Source: Cystobacter fuscus
Lineage (GTDB): Bacteria; Myxococcota; Myxococcia; Myxococcales; Myxococcaceae
Direction: 5' to 3'
NCBI RefSeq assembly: GCF_002305875.1
Contig: NZ_CP022098.1
Coordinates: 7,936,001 to 8,000,000, forward strand
Length of the DNA: 64,000 nucleotides
Positions 20,106 to 27,019 of the stretch are shown piece after piece. The position numbers and the translations under genes are program-made. Each line of letters opens with the position of its first letter. Within the stretch, counting starts at the first letter, position 1. The notes under the pieces were generated by a model. It was not told the origin of the DNA and did not search any database. It was given only the letters and a program-made list of their open reading frames with translations.

Positions 20106-21467
20106 ATGTCCCGCACGTGGAGCATGTCCACGCTGTCCTGCGGCACGCTGTCGACGCCGGATGGCACGATCACCGCGTCCAGCGCGTGGCTCGTCGCCGA
20201 GGAGCTGACCCAGCACGACAGGGCCGTGGAGCTGGTGACGCACGAGGCGGGGCACAACCTCTCCCTGGGCCACGCGCGCTCGCGCGACTTCGGCGCCGAG
20301 CCGCTCGGCTACCTGGGCACCCCGGGAACCGTCGTGGAGTACGGGGACGTCTTTTCCACCATGGGCGCGTGGAACCTGGGCCATTACGCGGCGCCGCACA
20401 AGGCACGCATCGGCTGGCTGGACGCGGCCTCGGTGGCGCGGGTGGAGGGCGTGGGGGGCACCTTCACGCTCGCGCCGGTGGTGTCCTCCGGTGGGTTGAA
20501 GGCCCTCAGGCTTCGCCGTGGCTCCACGAGTGGTGGCTGGCTGTGGTTGGAATACCACCAGCCGCTGGGTGCCTATGAGGGGACGCTGGATGCCCAGGCC
20601 TTCGGCGGCGCGCTCGTGCACTACGAGGACGCGGAGACGCGGGAGCGCTCGGACCTGATCGACTTCACGCCGGAGACCGCGTCCTGGAGCGATCCCGTGC
20701 TGCGGCCGGGAAGGACGTGGAACGACCCGTACAGCGACCTCTCCGTGACGGTGGAGTCCGCGACGACCGCGGGGCTCACGGTGAGCGTGCGGTATGAGCG
20801 GAAGCCGTGCGTACGGGCACTTTCCCAGGTGAAGGCGACGCCCTTCTCGGACACGGCGTCACCCGGGGGGCGGCCGGAGTTCGAGCTGGCCCTCACCAAT
20901 CCGGACTCGGCGGGTTGCGGCCCGAGCACCTTCCAGCTCTCGCCCATCATTCCCAGCGGCTGGAGCGCCGATCCCCTGCCCTCGCAAGTCACGGTCGCCG
21001 CATCCAGCACGGCCTATCTGACCCTCCAGACGTATGTGCCCTACCGCATGGAGCTCGGCCTCTACACGGCGGGCGTGGCCGTCACCCGCGACGGCTACAC
21101 GGTGGAGGGCACGAGCACGGTGAGGCTCGTCGAGCGCTGCATCCAGACACCGCCCACGCTCGTGTTGTCTCCGGCGACGCGGACGGCGGCGGCGGGCTCG
21201 ACGGTCACCTGGACGGTGAACGTGACCAACAACGACTCCGCCTCGTGCAATTGGGTCTGGTATGACTTCGTGTCCACCCTGCCCTCGGCGTGGGAGACGA
21301 TCTGGTCCGATTGGGGAGTGAATCTGCCTCCGGGCGGGACCTTCACCTTCACGATGACGAAGACCCTTCCCACGAGCGCGCGGGGGAGCCACACGGTGGA
21401 CCTGCGGCTCCATCAGGATGACTTCGGCCTCGCGGCGAGCACCACGGCCACCGTGGTGGTGGAGTAG
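20106..21467 (+). CDS. M11-like zinc metallopeptidase lacking its N-terminal region
   Basis: A 453-residue protein with the zinc site THEAGHNLSLGH near residue 42 and a Met-turn FSTMGAWNLGHYAAPHKARIGWL, cut here as GAWNLGHYAAPHKARIG. Both match gametolysin-like (M11) peptidases of myxobacteria. Two Ig-like/NEW3-type beta domains follow, with paired cysteines (PCVRAL, AGCGPS, ERCIQT, SCNWVW). Family members normally have a signal peptide and roughly 150-250 residues before the zinc site; here there are about 40 and no signal. A GGAGG five bases before ATG 20106 allows initiation, and a TAG at 20013 closes the frame. It is most likely a 5'-truncated relic, but it may still be translated. Confidence 0.7.
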   Translation: MSRTWSMSTLSCGTLSTPDGTITASSAWLVAEELTQHDRAVELVTHEAGHNLSLGHARSRDFGAEPLGYLGTPGTVVEYGDVFSTMGAWNLGHYAAPHKARIGWLDAASVARVEGVGGTFTLAPVVSSGGLKALRLRRGSTSGGWLWLEYHQPLGAYEGTLDAQAFGGALVHYEDAETRERSDLIDFTPETASWSDPVLRPGRTWNDPYSDLSVTVESATTAGLTVSVRYERKPCVRALSQVKATPFSDTASPGGRPEFELALTNPDSAGCGPSTFQLSPIIPSGWSADPLPSQVTVAASSTAYLTLQTYVPYRMELGLYTAGVAVTRDGYTVEGTSTVRLVERCIQTPPTLVLSPATRTAAAGSTVTWTVNVTNNDSASCNWVWYDFVSTLPSAWETIWSDWGVNLPPGGTFTFTMTKTLPTSARGSHTVDLRLHQDDFGLAASTTATVVVE

Positions 21468-21680
21468 CCCCCGCGCGGGGCGGCGGAAATCGAAGCCGCT
21501 AAGGCCGGATTCGCCTCCACTCGGGACCAGAGGCACACCCCCCGTTTCCCCTCTGAAAATGGGGCGCCCAACGACACGTGCCCCCTTCCCATCATTCAGC
21601 CGGTCCGATTTCGGGCTGTTTTCCCCTATCCAGCGTGCTCGGTAACACCGGGCTGCCGTCGCGCCCCATGGCCGGGATGT

Positions 21681-21956
21681 CTACGGCTCTAGGAAGAATA
21701 CAAAGTCTTCCACGCACTCCCCTCCAACAACCTCGCACTCAAAGCCATCAATTCTGCCAGGAGGATACTCAAACACCTTCCACGTCACGACCACATCATC
21801 AAAAGAGTAGTCCGCCCAATGTTCACGCGGTGCCCCGCCGCCGCCCTCCTCCCCGGGCACTGTCTCCCAATCAAGGTAACTGAAAGGCACCTCAACAATT
21901 TCATCAGTTTCGTCAACCCGGATCTTCGCTGTGGTATTGCTCCGAACGTGCGCCAT
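21681..21956 (-). CDS. Small protein in the SitA operon, candidate second immunity factor
   Basis: A 91-residue acidic protein with no family I recognise (start MAHVRSNTTAKIRVDETDEI; aromatic and acidic C-terminus ECVEDFVFFLEP). It follows the DUF2019 gene by 21 bases on the same strand and shares the lower GC of the toxin module, so it is presumably co-transcribed. Position and size suggest an accessory or immunity protein, which is inference only. No signal peptide or membrane segment is visible. Confidence 0.6.
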   Translation of the reverse strand: MAHVRSNTTAKIRVDETDEIVEVPFSYLDWETVPGEEGGGGAPREHWADYSFDDVVVTWKVFEYPPGRIDGFECEVVGGECVEDFVFFLEP

Positions 21957-21977
21957 TGTTGCCCCTTTATGTGGTCC

Positions 21978-22331
21978 TTAATCAACATCCAACTTCCAAG
22001 TGCCCTCATCCCAATACTTCAACGCCCGGGATGCCTCAAAAGGAATCAGACCTTCACCCTTGGCGGCCTCCCTAAGAACGGGCAAGGCTTGTTCCGGCCT
22101 ATCGCTAAGCAAGAAACCCGCCGCGTAGACTCGCACATCCATACGTGAGTGCGTCAGCAGTCGTGCGAGTGCATCCCGTCCAGCCTCGCCATGGTCGCGT
22201 AGCTTCTTATAGGCGGCTATGTATCGCTTCGCTTCCTTATCCCCTCCCTTACTAGGGTCGCCACGCATGATAGCGTCTGTTTGTGCAGCCACGTTTCGGG
22301 CGAACTCCTCCACTATGCTCTCCAGGTCCAT
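21978..22331 (-). CDS. DUF2019 protein, candidate SitI-type immunity protein
   Basis: A 117-residue all-helical cytosolic protein. The first 50 residues (EEFARNVAAQTDAIMRGD, YIAAYKKLRDHG) and the HEAT-like C-terminus (MDVRVYAAGFLL, FEASRALKYWDEG) match the DUF2019 pattern, which is often found beside polymorphic toxins. Its ATG at 22331 shares a base with the TGA of the toxin gene (TGATG), so translation is coupled; a TTG six bases earlier is a less likely start. This arrangement is that of Myxococcus sitA-sitI pairs, where SitI neutralises the toxin delivered by outer-membrane exchange. Specificity for this toxin is inferred. Confidence 0.78.
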   Translation of the reverse strand: MDLESIVEEFARNVAAQTDAIMRGDPSKGGDKEAKRYIAAYKKLRDHGEAGRDALARLLTHSRMDVRVYAAGFLLSDRPEQALPVLREAAKGEGLIPFEASRALKYWDEGTWKLDVD

Positions 22332-23770
22332 CACCAAACCCCGTTCTTGATGTTCTCTATCGCAAGCAAACCGAATTCCCTCTGTGCCTCATAGGATTGA
22401 GTGCTAAGCCATTGCCGCACCGTCAGCCTTGTTGACTTGGTGATGAAAAATCGAATCCTTGAATGGAAGGCGCTCACCTTGTCGTGTAGCGCCTTGTCCA
22501 TTGCAATAGCGTTTTCAGTGTTGTGCAGGGCTTCTCCGCCAAACCGCTTCGCGTTGCCCGGAGTTTGCTCCACGATGTGATGCCATTCCTTTCCCGTGCC
22601 CGCTGGTCCCATGGCCGACTTGAAGCCACTAAACGACCCCCACGCCCTGTGCCCGCTGGGGAGGAGCTTACCCCGAGTCGGGGCAGGACGCCCAGCGCCA
22701 ACGCCCCGGGCAGCCATGGCCATGGCATGAGGCGCCAACACCACGCGGATCGTTCCCTCTGGCACAGAGACAATAAGTCGCTCGGCTCCGGTTGCCGTCT
22801 CCAGCAGGCCCAACCCGGTACGAGTCGCGACTTTCTCCGACGCTTGCGCGAATCCGGGGAGCTTCGGGGCCTTGGACGCAAGGGCCACCGTTTCACCAAT
22901 GGCCGCCGTCCCTACGATGACGAGAATCCGCACACTGTTGGGACCGATGACGCGCCCGAAACGCTCGCCAATCTCGCGCAATTCCGCAAAGGTAGAGGCC
23001 CGGGGTGCATCCTCGTAAAGCTGCGCATAGGCCCGCAGCAGATCGAAAAATTCATAACCGAGATAGCCCCACAAAGCGGCACTAAACACCAGGGCCGCGC
23101 CCTTTGTTATCGGCTCGGGCACTGGCGCCACCAGCAGCGCCATATAAACCGTGATGCTAATGCTAATCATCGCGAGCATTCGCGTAGGGTCGAGCATGGC
23201 CCGCACTTCCGCGTTTACGCCTTCCAAGGCAGGGCCCACCGCCAGGGCGAGAGCAAGGCTTCGCTTGTCGCCGTCCTGTAAGCGGGGCCCGTCTTCAAAC
23301 AGCGTCAGGCAATCCCCTGGGGTGCCGCACCGTTCGCAAAAAAGCCCATAGGACCGGGCCATGTCTGATTGCCACGCTTCGCCACTCAAGGGCGCGGAAG
23401 CCAACGCCAGCCTACGCCCGACATACAGAGGGGGGCGGGACGCGGCCACCCGAAGCGGCATGTTAAGCCAAAGGTTTGTCATGGCCGCCGAAAAGTCGGC
23501 GTCGCTCACATGCACCGGCGCGAAGTCTGTTGGCAGCTTGGTAAAGATAGCCTCTTCCTGGCCCCCGCCCTCGGCTTCCGAGTCCAGCGCCCACGGTTCG
23601 GGCGAGTCGTGCGGCGCGGGCGATCGGTAGCGGGAGGCCGTCAACCCTCCATCTATGGGGGCCCCCGTGGAGCACGCTGTCACCAGCATCAAAGCCGCCA
23701 GCGCCAGCGCACCCACGCGCAAGGGCCGCCGTGTGTCCACGGGGCGAGTATCGACAAAACGCCTAGACAT
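22331..23770 (-). CDS. SitA5-like lipoprotein polymorphic toxin
   Basis: A 479-residue toxin. Residues 1-33 form a lipoprotein signal ending LMLVTAC, with Cys33 followed by Ser, consistent with outer-membrane sorting. The next ~330 residues (LYVGRRLALASAPLSGEAW, CERCGTPGDCLTLFEDG, KRSLALALAVGPALEG, then a hydrophobic stretch at ~205-255) resemble, from memory, the shared N-terminal region of SitA5-family toxins of myxobacteria. The C-terminal ~110 residues are the variable toxin. It has KEWHHIVEQTPGNAKRF with His397/His398, then ALHNTENAIAMDKALHDKVSAFH, an HNH/LHH-like nuclease pattern. A good promoter and GGAGAGG ribosome site precede ATG 23770. No sitB-like gene is visible upstream. Confidence 0.85.
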   Translation of the reverse strand: MSRRFVDTRPVDTRRPLRVGALALAALMLVTACSTGAPIDGGLTASRYRSPAPHDSPEPWALDSEAEGGGQEEAIFTKLPTDFAPVHVSDADFSAAMTNLWLNMPLRVAASRPPLYVGRRLALASAPLSGEAWQSDMARSYGLFCERCGTPGDCLTLFEDGPRLQDGDKRSLALALAVGPALEGVNAEVRAMLDPTRMLAMISISITVYMALLVAPVPEPITKGAALVFSAALWGYLGYEFFDLLRAYAQLYEDAPRASTFAELREIGERFGRVIGPNSVRILVIVGTAAIGETVALASKAPKLPGFAQASEKVATRTGLGLLETATGAERLIVSVPEGTIRVVLAPHAMAMAARGVGAGRPAPTRGKLLPSGHRAWGSFSGFKSAMGPAGTGKEWHHIVEQTPGNAKRFGGEALHNTENAIAMDKALHDKVSAFHSRIRFFITKSTRLTVRQWLSTQSYEAQREFGLLAIENIKNGVW

Positions 23771-23820
23771 TGCCGCACCTCTCCGGGCGAGCTGCCCGAG
23801 CTGGAAGGCCAAACCCGCCG

Positions 23821-23849
23821 ATTACAGAGAGGGAAGACTGCGCGGTCAA
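23821..23849 (-). promoter_or_regulatory. Putative sigma-70 promoter of the sitA operon
   Basis: On the minus strand TTGACC (23849-23844) and TGTAAT (23826-23821) are separated by exactly 17 bases. Transcription would start near 23814, leaving a leader of about 44 bases before ATG 23770. This is one of the best consensus-like promoters in the window and suggests constitutive expression of toxin and immunity together. Confidence 0.55.
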
Positions 23850-23981
23850 GACGTCGGGTCTGGTAAGGCGCTGAGAGCCCATCAGTTAGGTTGTGTCTCC
23901 CTCGGGCCGGATGGGGCGGCGGCACTACTCACGCGCCTTTCCTTGCTCTCTCCCTTGCTCTACGGCGGGAAGGTGACGTTC

Positions 23982-24081
23982 CCTAAGGAGGCTGGAGGAA
24001 ATAACTTTGCCGATTCGGGCAGGAGGCTCGCTCGGGAGGTCAATTGCTCTCAGATAACTTATTTTCTCCAGCCTCCTAAGG
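23982..24081. repeat. Imperfect 24-bp inverted repeat beside the transposase
   Basis: The arm at 23982-24005 (core AAGGAGGCTGGAGG) and the arm at 24058-24081 (core CTCCAGCCTCCTAAGG) are inverted copies matching at about 20 of 24 positions, 52 bases apart. AAGGTGACG also recurs directly beside both arms (23970-23978 and 24078-24086). It lies in the 430-bp gene-free stretch between sitA and the transposase. It may be an IS end, a MITE-like fragment or a terminator; I cannot decide. Confidence 0.45.
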
Positions 24082-24203
24082 TGACGGTGCGGGGCCCCTG
24101 CGATTCCCACAGCTTGAGAGTGCACGGGCAGGTGAGTTGCCCCGGCTCCCTCTCGGCGCCCACCACGACAAAGCCCAGGGCACCCTCGTGAGTGGCAAGT
24201 TCA

Positions 24204-25592
24204 TCAGGCTGCCATCTTGAGCGGGTGAGGGGGAAGATAGGCCTTGGAGCGAGTGGCGAGGATTTTCGCCAGCAGCGAGCAAGGGGCGTTGGAGGCGAGA
24301 ATTCTGTCCACCTCGGACTGGAGGGTGGCTCGCACAATGTGCTCACTGGGTCCGGCCTCCTTGCGCAGAGTGCGGAACCACAGTGGCAGTCTGTCCCACA
24401 CCTGGTCAGCATACAGCAGGGAGAGCATCTGGAGCAGGCCCAAGCCAATGGCCGCGATGGCGACGAAGCGCTCATAGGCCTCCAGCTTACGAGCCACCTG
24501 TGCACGGTAGTGCTCGCCTGCGCGGTGCAGGTACTGTTCGCCATCCCCCCGCTTGCGCTTTTCCATGGCCTTCATCCAGAAGCGGTAGCAGAAAGCAAAC
24601 ACCCTTTCCACGAGGGCGCGGAAGCCCACCTCAATCTTGAATCTCCAGCCGTAGGCCACTACAATGGCCTCCGCGCTCAACGCAGTGCGAGTGGACAGGA
24701 ATATGGCTTTCCTGCCTTTGTCGTCAATCGACAGAATGAACTTGACGAGCCGCGTCTGCCAGTACAGCTCCACCTCATGCAGCAGCGCCTGCTGCCTACG
24801 TCCGTACAATTCCACTTCGACACCGCGAAACAACGCCCCGCGGGCAAGGAGTTCCTGGAGCACCACCTTCTTGCCGTACTTCTTCGGCCGCCCGCGCGTG
24901 CGCTTGCGGACTTTGGGCGCGGGCTCGAAGGCCACCGTGTTCAGTCGTACTCGGGCAATGAGGTGGAAGCCCGCACACAGCAACCCCTCAATGAAAGGTC
25001 GACAGGCATACTGGCAATCCGCAAGCACTGTTCCCGCCATGCGGGCGGTGGAAACCACCAGTTGGTGCATACGGGTGACATGGGTTACCTTTTGAGAAGG
25101 TGAGGCTTTGATTCCATCCTGAATGGAGAGTCTCACGGGAATGGCGAACAGGCGTGAGCCCGCTTGGGCCAGCAGGCTCAAGGCCCCCCAGAAGTGGCCC
25201 ATGACAAACTCCGGCTTGTTGTTGTCCTCCGAGGCCTGGTGCGGCGTCTTCACCCCCGGCATCTTCTTGCCCGCCTTGGCCGACACCAACCCGTCCACCA
25301 CGTACACCGGCTGGCCCTCCAGGTTCAGCACGGGGGCTTTGCGCCCGAGCAGTTCCACCCAGCGTGTGCACAACGCTTGCGCACTGAAGGCCGAGGAATG
25401 AAAAAAGTGCAGTAGGTTGTAGTACTCGCTGGAGGCCAGCCCGAAGTAACGGATGACGCTGGTCAGCCCTCAACCATCGAAGTGGAGCAGGAAGGCCCAG
25501 ACACTCAGGACGAACCAACCAAATGTCGCCTGGCGCCGAAACACGGCGCGCAACTCGGAGAGCCAGATGTCTACCTCGCGGACAAGTTCCAT
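24204..25592 (-). pseudogene. DDE transposase gene interrupted by an in-frame stop
   Basis: Read continuously from ATG 25592 (MELVREVDIWLSEL, then FRRQATFGWFVLSVWAF), the frame encodes a transposase of about 462 residues. A single TGA at 25472-25470, right after LLHFDG, splits it. Beyond the stop the same frame resumes GLTSVIRYFGLASSEYYNLL and continues to KMAA at 24204. The DDE-like parts are VYVVDGLVSAKAGKKMPGVK, VLADCQYACRPF and WRFKIEVGFRALVE, resembling IS4/IS701-type DDE_5 transposases. The exact IS family could not be named and no clear terminal repeats were found. Without readthrough the enzyme lacks its N-terminal 40 residues or more, so the element is probably immobile. It separates the sitA module from the SUKH gene. 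Confidence 0.8.
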
Positions 25593-25885
25593 CTCGACGC
25601 TACCTCTGAAGTCACAACTCCAGAAGTCAACCAGGAGCAAGCAGCGCGCCATTCCCCCACAGGCGCTTCAACTGCATCGACCTCGCACTCCACGCTTACA
25701 ACTTCAGATAACGGAGAACTTTTCACTCACGAGCTCTCAGCGGCTTGAGTCACTTCTCGCTGGCTGGCAGGTGATTTCCATCCAAGACGCGCACCAGGTA
25801 GCCCACCCCGTGAGGGCCACCTGGTCCGGCGTGTACCCAAAGGCTGCTCCGCCTCACCACCCGGCCCGGCGCACAGCCCGCGTGC

Positions 25886-26437
25886 CTATGCCTCGCCGTA
25901 GGTCTCGATGAACTCGTCGATGACGTTGACGATGTGGGTGGAGAAGTCCCGAAAGTGCTTCGCCTTCTTGCCGCCGAGGAGCTGGGGCAGCGCGAACGTC
26001 TCGTCGTGGTAGTAGGGCACGACCCCCAGCTCCCCCTCCGGGCTCCGGTCGCGCGGATTGAAGCACCAGAAGTTCTCCACCGAGTCGGAGTCGATGCGCT
26101 GGAAGAACAGGGCCTCCTTGATGGCCTCCTCCACGTCGGGGTCATCTCCGTCCGCGGCGTCGGAAGGATCTGGCGCCGCCGCATGCAGATAGTCCGGGCG
26201 CTCCATTCCGATGAGCTCCTCGCCGCCATACCTCACCGTGAAGGTGCCGTAGGTACGGAGGAAATGCACATAGCTGGGCGGGAGCTTCAGCTCGTATTTC
26301 GACTCCAGCGCCAACACCTCCGTGGCGGTGAGGGGCTTGGAGAACTCCAACGACATGTCTTCCTTCTCGCTCGCGAAGGCCTCGAGCCGCTTCACGGCCC
26401 CGGCCACCTCGTTCTCGCTCACCTTCGTCGACGACAT
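25886..26437 (-). CDS. SMI1/KNR4 (SUKH) family protein, orphan immunity candidate
   Basis: A 183-residue SUKH-superfamily protein. The family core is visible: LTATEVLALESKYELKLPPS followed by YVHFLRTYGTF near residue 58, then FWCFNPRDRSPEGELGVVPYY near 120, and an acidic insert (DAADGDDPDVEEA). SUKH proteins commonly act as immunity factors against polymorphic nuclease toxins. It lies on the same strand as the SitA operon but upstream of it and across the IS remnant, with no toxin of its own, so it may be an orphan immunity gene. Cytosolic; no signal peptide. Confidence 0.8.
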   Translation of the reverse strand: MSSTKVSENEVAGAVKRLEAFASEKEDMSLEFSKPLTATEVLALESKYELKLPPSYVHFLRTYGTFTVRYGGEELIGMERPDYLHAAAPDPSDAADGDDPDVEEAIKEALFFQRIDSDSVENFWCFNPRDRSPEGELGVVPYYHDETFALPQLLGGKKAKHFRDFSTHIVNVIDEFIETYGEA

Positions 26438-27019
26438 GCGAACTCCAATGGCTCAGCCAACACCTGAGGGGGCGACAAGATACTCCGGCATCCAGGAAAA
26501 GAGGAAGCCGATTGAAGGCGCACCCCACGGCGTGCCAAGGATGGAAGACCGACTTGAGCCGCCTGTCGAGAGGGGTGGGGCCAGACTCCCCAGCAGGCGT
26601 CATGCCGGGGCAACCCATCAGACGAGCCCCTGGAACATCGGGCGCTCCCTATCATGGGCGAGGTGAATCTCCACGCTGGCCCCGCTCGCGAGGGAACACC
26701 CCCAGGGAACTGGAAGGACCAGAAGGCGCTGGGAGGAATGGTCCTTGGGGACGCGCATGTTGCGCCTGTGAGGATCAGTTGGCCGCAGCGCACGCCAGGC
26801 TCCTCCACCAGGAGAAAGGAATGACGCTCCAGTTGCAGGATCGACCCGTGCCGACCTTCCGGCCCATTCCGTGGAAGCCTGTTTCCGACCCGAGACATGA
26901 ACCCGGGCTCTCCCCTGTCGCTCGTGGATCCGGTCAAACAGCACATGGCCGGGGAGGCGGGCATCCGAGCGTACCGAGACCACGAAGCCCGCCTTCGCGG
27001 CGCATGGGGGGCGAGGAAG
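26438..27019. other. Gene-poor stretch upstream of the hybrid kinase
   Basis: No convincing gene. A 73-codon frame at 26821-27042 on the plus strand has a good AGGAGAAAGGA ribosome-site-like sequence. Its translation is proline/arginine-rich without family features, and it runs into the kinase start, so I do not call it. The stretch probably holds the kinase promoter and the SUKH promoter, neither of which I can point to. Confidence 0.4.

Follow-up and report, generated by a model that had tools for sequence, protein, structure and literature searches.

A probable SitA5–SitI toxin–immunity cassette in Cystobacter fuscus and the variable segment behind its immunity gene

A lipoprotein gene of the social soil bacterium Cystobacter fuscus and the small gene that directly follows it very probably form a SitA5–SitI toxin–immunity cassette of the outer-membrane-exchange system. 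The pair lies in a window of 64,000 nucleotides (contig NZ_CP022098.1, positions 7,936,001 to 8,000,000), in which the coordinates below are counted unless a locus or a genome position in Mb is named. Family membership, operon layout, cognate pairing of the two genes and the presence of traA and traB in the genome are read from the sequence, while delivery, entry, nuclease action and protection would follow by analogy with the published family. The features of the locus, including a third reading frame behind the pair, are collected in Table 1.

Table 1. Features of the cassette, with the evidence on which each assignment is based
Feature	Position	Strand	Basis
sitA5, lipoprotein toxin, 479 aa, lipobox VTAC with Cys33	22331..23770	minus	ORF translation, curated profile, alignment
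Escort domain of SitA5 (residues 70-295); mainly helices predicted, with mixed confidence	22886..23563	minus	profile span, model
C-terminal HNH-like toxin domain, residues 366-479	22334..22675	minus	27- and 50-sequence alignments, AlphaFold model
sitI, 117 aa, immunity gene cognate to the toxin; divergent protein of the DUF2019/HEAT type	21978..22331	minus	pairing, alignment, profiles
Third ORF, 91 aa, possible extra immunity gene or decaying ORF	21681..21956	minus	ORF; found solely in the window genome

Toxin gene and family membership

On the evidence of its sequence, the window lipoprotein is a member of the SitA5 toxin family. The NCBIfam model SitA5_escort (NF050093.1) aligns with residues 70-295 at 183.5 bits, above the curated cut-off of 160 (E 5.4e-54), and confirms the Sit-type N-terminal region that a first-pass annotation of this DNA had recognized. 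The VTAC lipobox, a lipoprotein signal predicted by reading the sequence, ends at Cys33 and is followed by Ser34, again as that annotation had described. In an alignment of 50 sequences, made up of 49 chosen loci and the window, Cys33 is invariant, and 41 of the sequences, the window's own among them, match the escort model at E <= 0.01.

The genome is a single contig of 12.35 Mb with 47 places related to the window toxin. The SitA5 model matches it at 52 places, and the 41 of these that lie above cut-off are in line with the 25-80 sitAI loci per genome, all families together, that are given in PMC8546572. Two nearly full-length paralogs of the toxin share 88% and 84% identity with it; in a third, identity is 52% across residues 128-479. 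A toxin relative in a same-genus genome, G073 (locus L183, 3451-4290), has lost 217 escort codons in frame; the deletion joins the N-terminal part to the nuclease domain, and the immunity gene of that locus is 91% identical to the window's.

C-terminal toxin domain

Both motifs that had been cited for an HNH/LHH-like nuclease, KEWHHIVEQ and ALHNTENAI, are situated within the C-terminal domain. The residues invariant in the 50 sequences include, among others, H397, H398, N417, N420, H429, R452 and W454. In the AlphaFold model of the full-length toxin (mean pLDDT 67, pTM 0.42), the toxin domain reaches a pLDDT of about 92-98 (10-residue means) from residue 371 on, and contains two strands (394-398 and 421-425) followed by a helix (426-436). 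We take this strand-strand-helix arrangement, with its invariant H/N/H residues, to fit an HNH site.

HNH_2 is the commonest Pfam match among relatives of the domain, found weakly in 9 of the 50 (best E 0.0023). When ten relatives were scanned singly, it stayed below cut-off in all three in which it was seen (best 13.8 against 21), and in the window toxin it is absent at E <= 1, with no Pfam family above cut-off for the C-terminal domain. DUF2380, which PMC12077181 names as the SitA6 lipoprotein toxin family, is weakly matched by 3 of the 50; the Tox-LHH, AHH and WHH profiles are matched by none of them (E <= 0.1). Comparison of the toxin-domain profile with solved chains gave no nuclease, the matches being weak and of no evident relation. 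Foldseek and VIA-align, each with the full-length model, gave no HNH chains; the matches are mostly helical, chiefly cover residues 163-303 and barely probe the nuclease part. The invariant HH-N-N-H residues and the confident model suggest that the domain is likely, though not proven, to be a nuclease of the HNH kind. The HNH half of the initial assignment is thereby supported in part, with HNH_2 below threshold, and the LHH-like half finds no support in the Tox-LHH, AHH and WHH results.

Within the order, 56 of 145 genomes contain the domain. Across 84,980 species, each represented by one genome, 119 relatives were obtained, and the best 80 of these were used for the species-wide locus counts below. 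Myxobacteria (Archangium, Myxococcus, Corallococcus, Pyxidicoccus, Citreicoccus, Hyalangium, Myxococcaceae) account, by record title, for 78 of the 80, and the other two are a record labelled Comamonas and a Thermoanaerobaculia MAG.

Immunity gene

The 117-residue gene behind the toxin is, by gene pairing and co-divergence, the cognate immunity gene, the role proposed for it in the first-pass annotation. The shared base noted there is also found: base 22331 belongs both to the toxin stop codon (TGA) and to the ATG of sitI. Relatives of sitI occur in 61 of the 145 genomes. A sitI relative adjoins the toxin domain in every one of 30 loci examined from the toxin search of these genomes, the window's included. 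Conversely, each of 30 immunity loci examined has a whole or fragmentary toxin domain upstream of the sitI relative; one of them, L072, has three copies, of which the second is the one matched. Species-wide, a sitI relative stands directly behind the toxin in 69 of the best 80 of 119 loci, with a one-base overlap in 39, a four-base overlap in 17 and gaps of 2-20 bases in 13, the sitI starts being extrapolated from alignments. In 11 of the 80 loci (among L094-L173), the first 1.4 kb or so behind the toxin contains two or three sitI-type genes.

No sitI-type gene occupies the expected position in 11 of the 80 loci (L152, L155, L162-L167, L169, L171 and L173). The toxin-domain match stops at residue 103-109 of 114 in all of them, which suggests that this group may have exchanged the toxin end together with the immunity partner; the 11 loci are possibly a subtype with another immunity partner. 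Where the pair is kept, its two members appear to diverge together. Toxin-domain and immunity distances are correlated with r = 0.60, and the partial r given escort distance is 0.46, a value equalled in 0 of 2000 permutations. The test covered 47 sequences with all three parts, namely the window and the 46 loci, out of 80, that passed coverage filters.

Profiles and alignment identify the 117-residue protein as a divergent DUF2019/HEAT-type protein. Among 45 aligned immunity proteins, 44 match DUF2019 (best E 2.9e-10) and 41 match HEAT_2, at E <= 0.1, and a profile of the 45 finds the solved structure 2i9c at E 1.6e-10. The sole member that does not match DUF2019 is the window's own, which scores 12.9 bits against PF09450, where the cut-off is 23.3 (E 0.11). 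The DUF2019 label of the first-pass annotation is thus correct for the family but is not reached by the window protein itself. At about 6.59 Mb of the same genome (L024, 3608-5149), a solitary sitI-type gene, 59% identical, is accompanied by a 21-residue toxin-end remnant and adjoins a TsiV-type immunity gene (Pfam PF11876, 142 bits).

Third reading frame and the variable slot behind sitI

The third ORF starts 21 bases past the sitI stop, at the spacing annotated at the outset, and the sequence AAGGGG ends 5 bases before its ATG. Its GC by codon position (0.65/0.39/0.59) is close to that of sitI (0.66/0.43/0.58). Its own genome contains the gene at a single place; the 194 other phylum genomes that were searched gave no relative at E <= 0.001, and three weak matches appear at E <= 0.01 among the 145 genomes of the order. 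It was found neither in 50,697 phages nor in 72,556 plasmids, nor by pattern scans of genome contigs and viral contigs, which reach close relatives alone. At the toxin loci it was detected in 0 of 80 (best 80 of 119; tblastn, E <= 1e-3), and it was not detected in the paralogous cassette L022 either. The protein matches no Pfam family at E <= 1 and no immunity profile of Pfam or NCBIfam. Five single-sequence models have mean pLDDT values of 46 to 69; the best is all beta, with some block means above 80, and comparison with solved folds gave no match at E <= 0.001.

The one NCBIfam match of the third protein is to the DHCW_cupin model (NF038084), at 12.7 bits against a cut-off of 70 (E 0.1). 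Descent from a DHCW cupin was considered on account of this match and of two tblastn matches at E about 0.005, one of them to a protein that is a clear DHCW cupin. However, an equal score is reached by a low-complexity match that lies antisense to another gene (L026), DHCW cupins occur in 1 of 20 relatives searched and nowhere in the own genome, and the fold comparison did not support it. The resemblance is probably due to chance and such an origin is unproven.

Alignment of the window with the paralogous cassette L021 (8.73 Mb) continues beyond the sitI stop and reaches the third gene, whose initial ~17 codons agree in frame and without indels (MTRIRSRTTAKILVEST in the window, MAHVRSNTTAKIRVDET in L021), and the start and spacing of the gene are kept next to upstream DNA in which the two copies differ by indels. 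The L021 frame has a stop behind residue 27, and the two sequences diverge as far as a common 92-bp stretch, while the toxin and sitI ORFs of L021 are intact despite the shortened third ORF. An in-frame start followed by a stop suggests that the third gene probably predates the duplication, was lost in one copy and is dispensable. Alternatively, a later extension of the window copy, or gene conversion, may explain the difference.

The 92-bp element, at 21479-21570 of the window, recurs behind sitI-type genes with 86-93% identity among the loci that had already been fetched. It is situated about 265-430 bases behind sitI in L021, L030, L036 and L095, as in the window, and about 875 bases behind it in L063. 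L030, L036, L063 and L095 are cassettes of other genomes, and the DNA between sitI and the element differs (aligned for L030 and L021). Different DNA in front of a shared element makes this slot look exchangeable, and the element is possibly the 3' boundary of the cassette. When 63 next-ORFs behind sitI were scanned (the longest candidate per locus from 97 candidates, many of them probably spurious), nine matched DUF2019, partly as the extra sitI copies, and one matched Imm52. In a minority of loci the slot is occupied by additional genes of immunity type.

Neighbourhood of the cassette

The GC content in 1-kb windows is 0.56-0.64 over the cassette, lower than the 0.69-0.71 of the flank on the sitI side. 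At the level of ORFs, the position of sitB holds no such gene; the upstream side is taken up by the end of a remnant gene, into which 110 bp of palindromic DNA are inserted, and by a transposase, which agrees with the first-pass annotation, where no sitB had been seen. The absence of sitB is ordinary, as it is reported for many sitA loci in PMC5562445 and PMC8546572. The palindromic element (23977-24086) lies inside the remnant gene end, has 31-nt arms that are 84% complementary and looks like a miniature insertion element; it is absent from L021, and four more partial (arm) matches are found in the genome. Past the remnant gene, a DDE transposase at 24204-25373 matches Pfam DDE_5 above cut-off and an IS701-type NCBIfam model below cut-off. 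Homology between the window and L021 ends at 24178.

On the same strand, at 25886-26437, a SUKH-1 (SMI1_KNR4) protein is encoded (34.9 bits, cut-off 25.4), and its gene is possibly an orphan immunity gene. Rfam gave no match at E <= 0.5 over 21300-26600, and the signals from promoter and terminator scans were no better than those of shuffles.

Alternative readings

A broken or silent cassette, in which the lipoprotein would be no active toxin, is very improbable. Mobile DNA and a gene remnant do lie nearby, and the same-genus relative L183 has been shortened by its in-frame deletion; however, the window retains an intact lipobox, escort domain and sitI together with the conserved HH-N-N-H residues, and the toxin/sitI overlap is the layout of most relatives.

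From its position one may guess that the third ORF is an extra immunity gene; at least equally probable is that it is decaying. We consider it unlikely that the gene is a second determinant of the same toxin's system, such as a co-immunity protein or a chaperone, needed for full protection or secretion. Its strand, its place close behind sitI, the ribosome-binding-like AAGGGG, the sitI-like codon-position GC and the in-frame initial codons behind the 88%-identical paralogous cassette would all suit this role, but the failure to detect it in the best 80 of 119 loci and in L022, and the stop in L021 next to an intact toxin and sitI, argue that cassettes of this kind can generally do without it. 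Slightly better placed, though doubtful, is the proposal that the protein represents a new all-beta immunity family against a different toxin, hitch-hiking between sitI and the 92-bp element. If this were true, extra self-identity would travel with sitAI cassettes in exchangeable pieces. A non-functional frame, decaying or arisen by chance in the variable segment behind sitI, is a distinctly stronger candidate, which we rate at somewhat below even chance. It is favoured by the lack of relatives in the searched phylum genomes (E <= 0.001), phages, plasmids and scanned viral and genome contigs, by the truncation in L021 and by the different DNA in other cassettes. Against it stand the start, spacing and ~17 codons common to the paralog in spite of indels upstream, the codon-position GC and the block means above 80 in places in the best single-sequence model.

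Proposed mode of action

TraA (NF033759, 1062 bits, cut-off 750) and TraB (NF033763, 960 bits, cut-off 700), both required by the Sit system, are encoded by overlapping ORFs at about 11.79 Mb of the own genome; the traA and traB genes that the first-pass annotation had suggested looking for are therefore both present, above curated cut-offs. TraA was reached by a search with TIGR04201, a model named in PMC3325183. A PA14 route to TraA gave five places, and the three that were scanned are fibro-slime proteins.

In a SitA5–SitI cassette modelled on the published family, the lipoprotein would be made and sorted to the outer membrane, and would pass to a TraA-matched neighbour by TraAB-mediated exchange. 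With the help of the escort domain, the HNH-like C-terminal nuclease would then enter the cytoplasm and kill recipients that lack the cognate 117-residue DUF2019/HEAT-type immunity protein. This reading can do without the third gene, which would be either an additional, dispensable gene of immunity type in a variable slot behind sitI or a decaying ORF.

Comparison with known systems

With this locus the SitA5 repertoire gains a well-supported member. The locus ties a putative nuclease-type toxin domain of myxobacteria to a DUF2019/HEAT-type protein by gene pairing and co-divergence, and it offers a testable function for DUF2019, a family still named 'unknown function'; a limited literature search found no paper that links DUF2019 with immunity. 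The resemblance to DUF2019 (PF09450), whose solved relative 2i9c is RPA1889, lies in the profile of the 45 immunity proteins, which finds 2i9c, whereas the window protein alone falls below the Pfam cut-off.

The locus resembles SitA5–SitI as described in PMC5562445 (eLife 2017) and PMC8546572 (mBio 2021) in its escort profile, lipobox, putative nuclease-type C-terminus and directly downstream sitI, in the presence of traA and traB in the genome, and in having no sitB, as in many loci. SitA5-Mf1 has the HNH nuclease PF13391 according to PMC8546572, and PF13391 also weakly matches relatives of the window domain, a likeness at the level of the Pfam family. In contrast to these SitA5–SitI systems as described there, the immunity protein of the window is of a divergent DUF2019/HEAT type and is followed by a genome-specific small gene.

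Additional immunity genes behind one toxin, for example Imm11 in M. xanthus, are described in the commentary PMC12077181. The sitI copies found downstream in 11 of the 80 loci are comparable, as extra immunity genes behind a cognate one; the 91-residue protein differs from the Imm11 case as given there, being no sitI copy and matching no immunity family. The variable slot behind sitI bears on a question raised in PMC12077181, namely why several immunity genes are present at some toxin loci.
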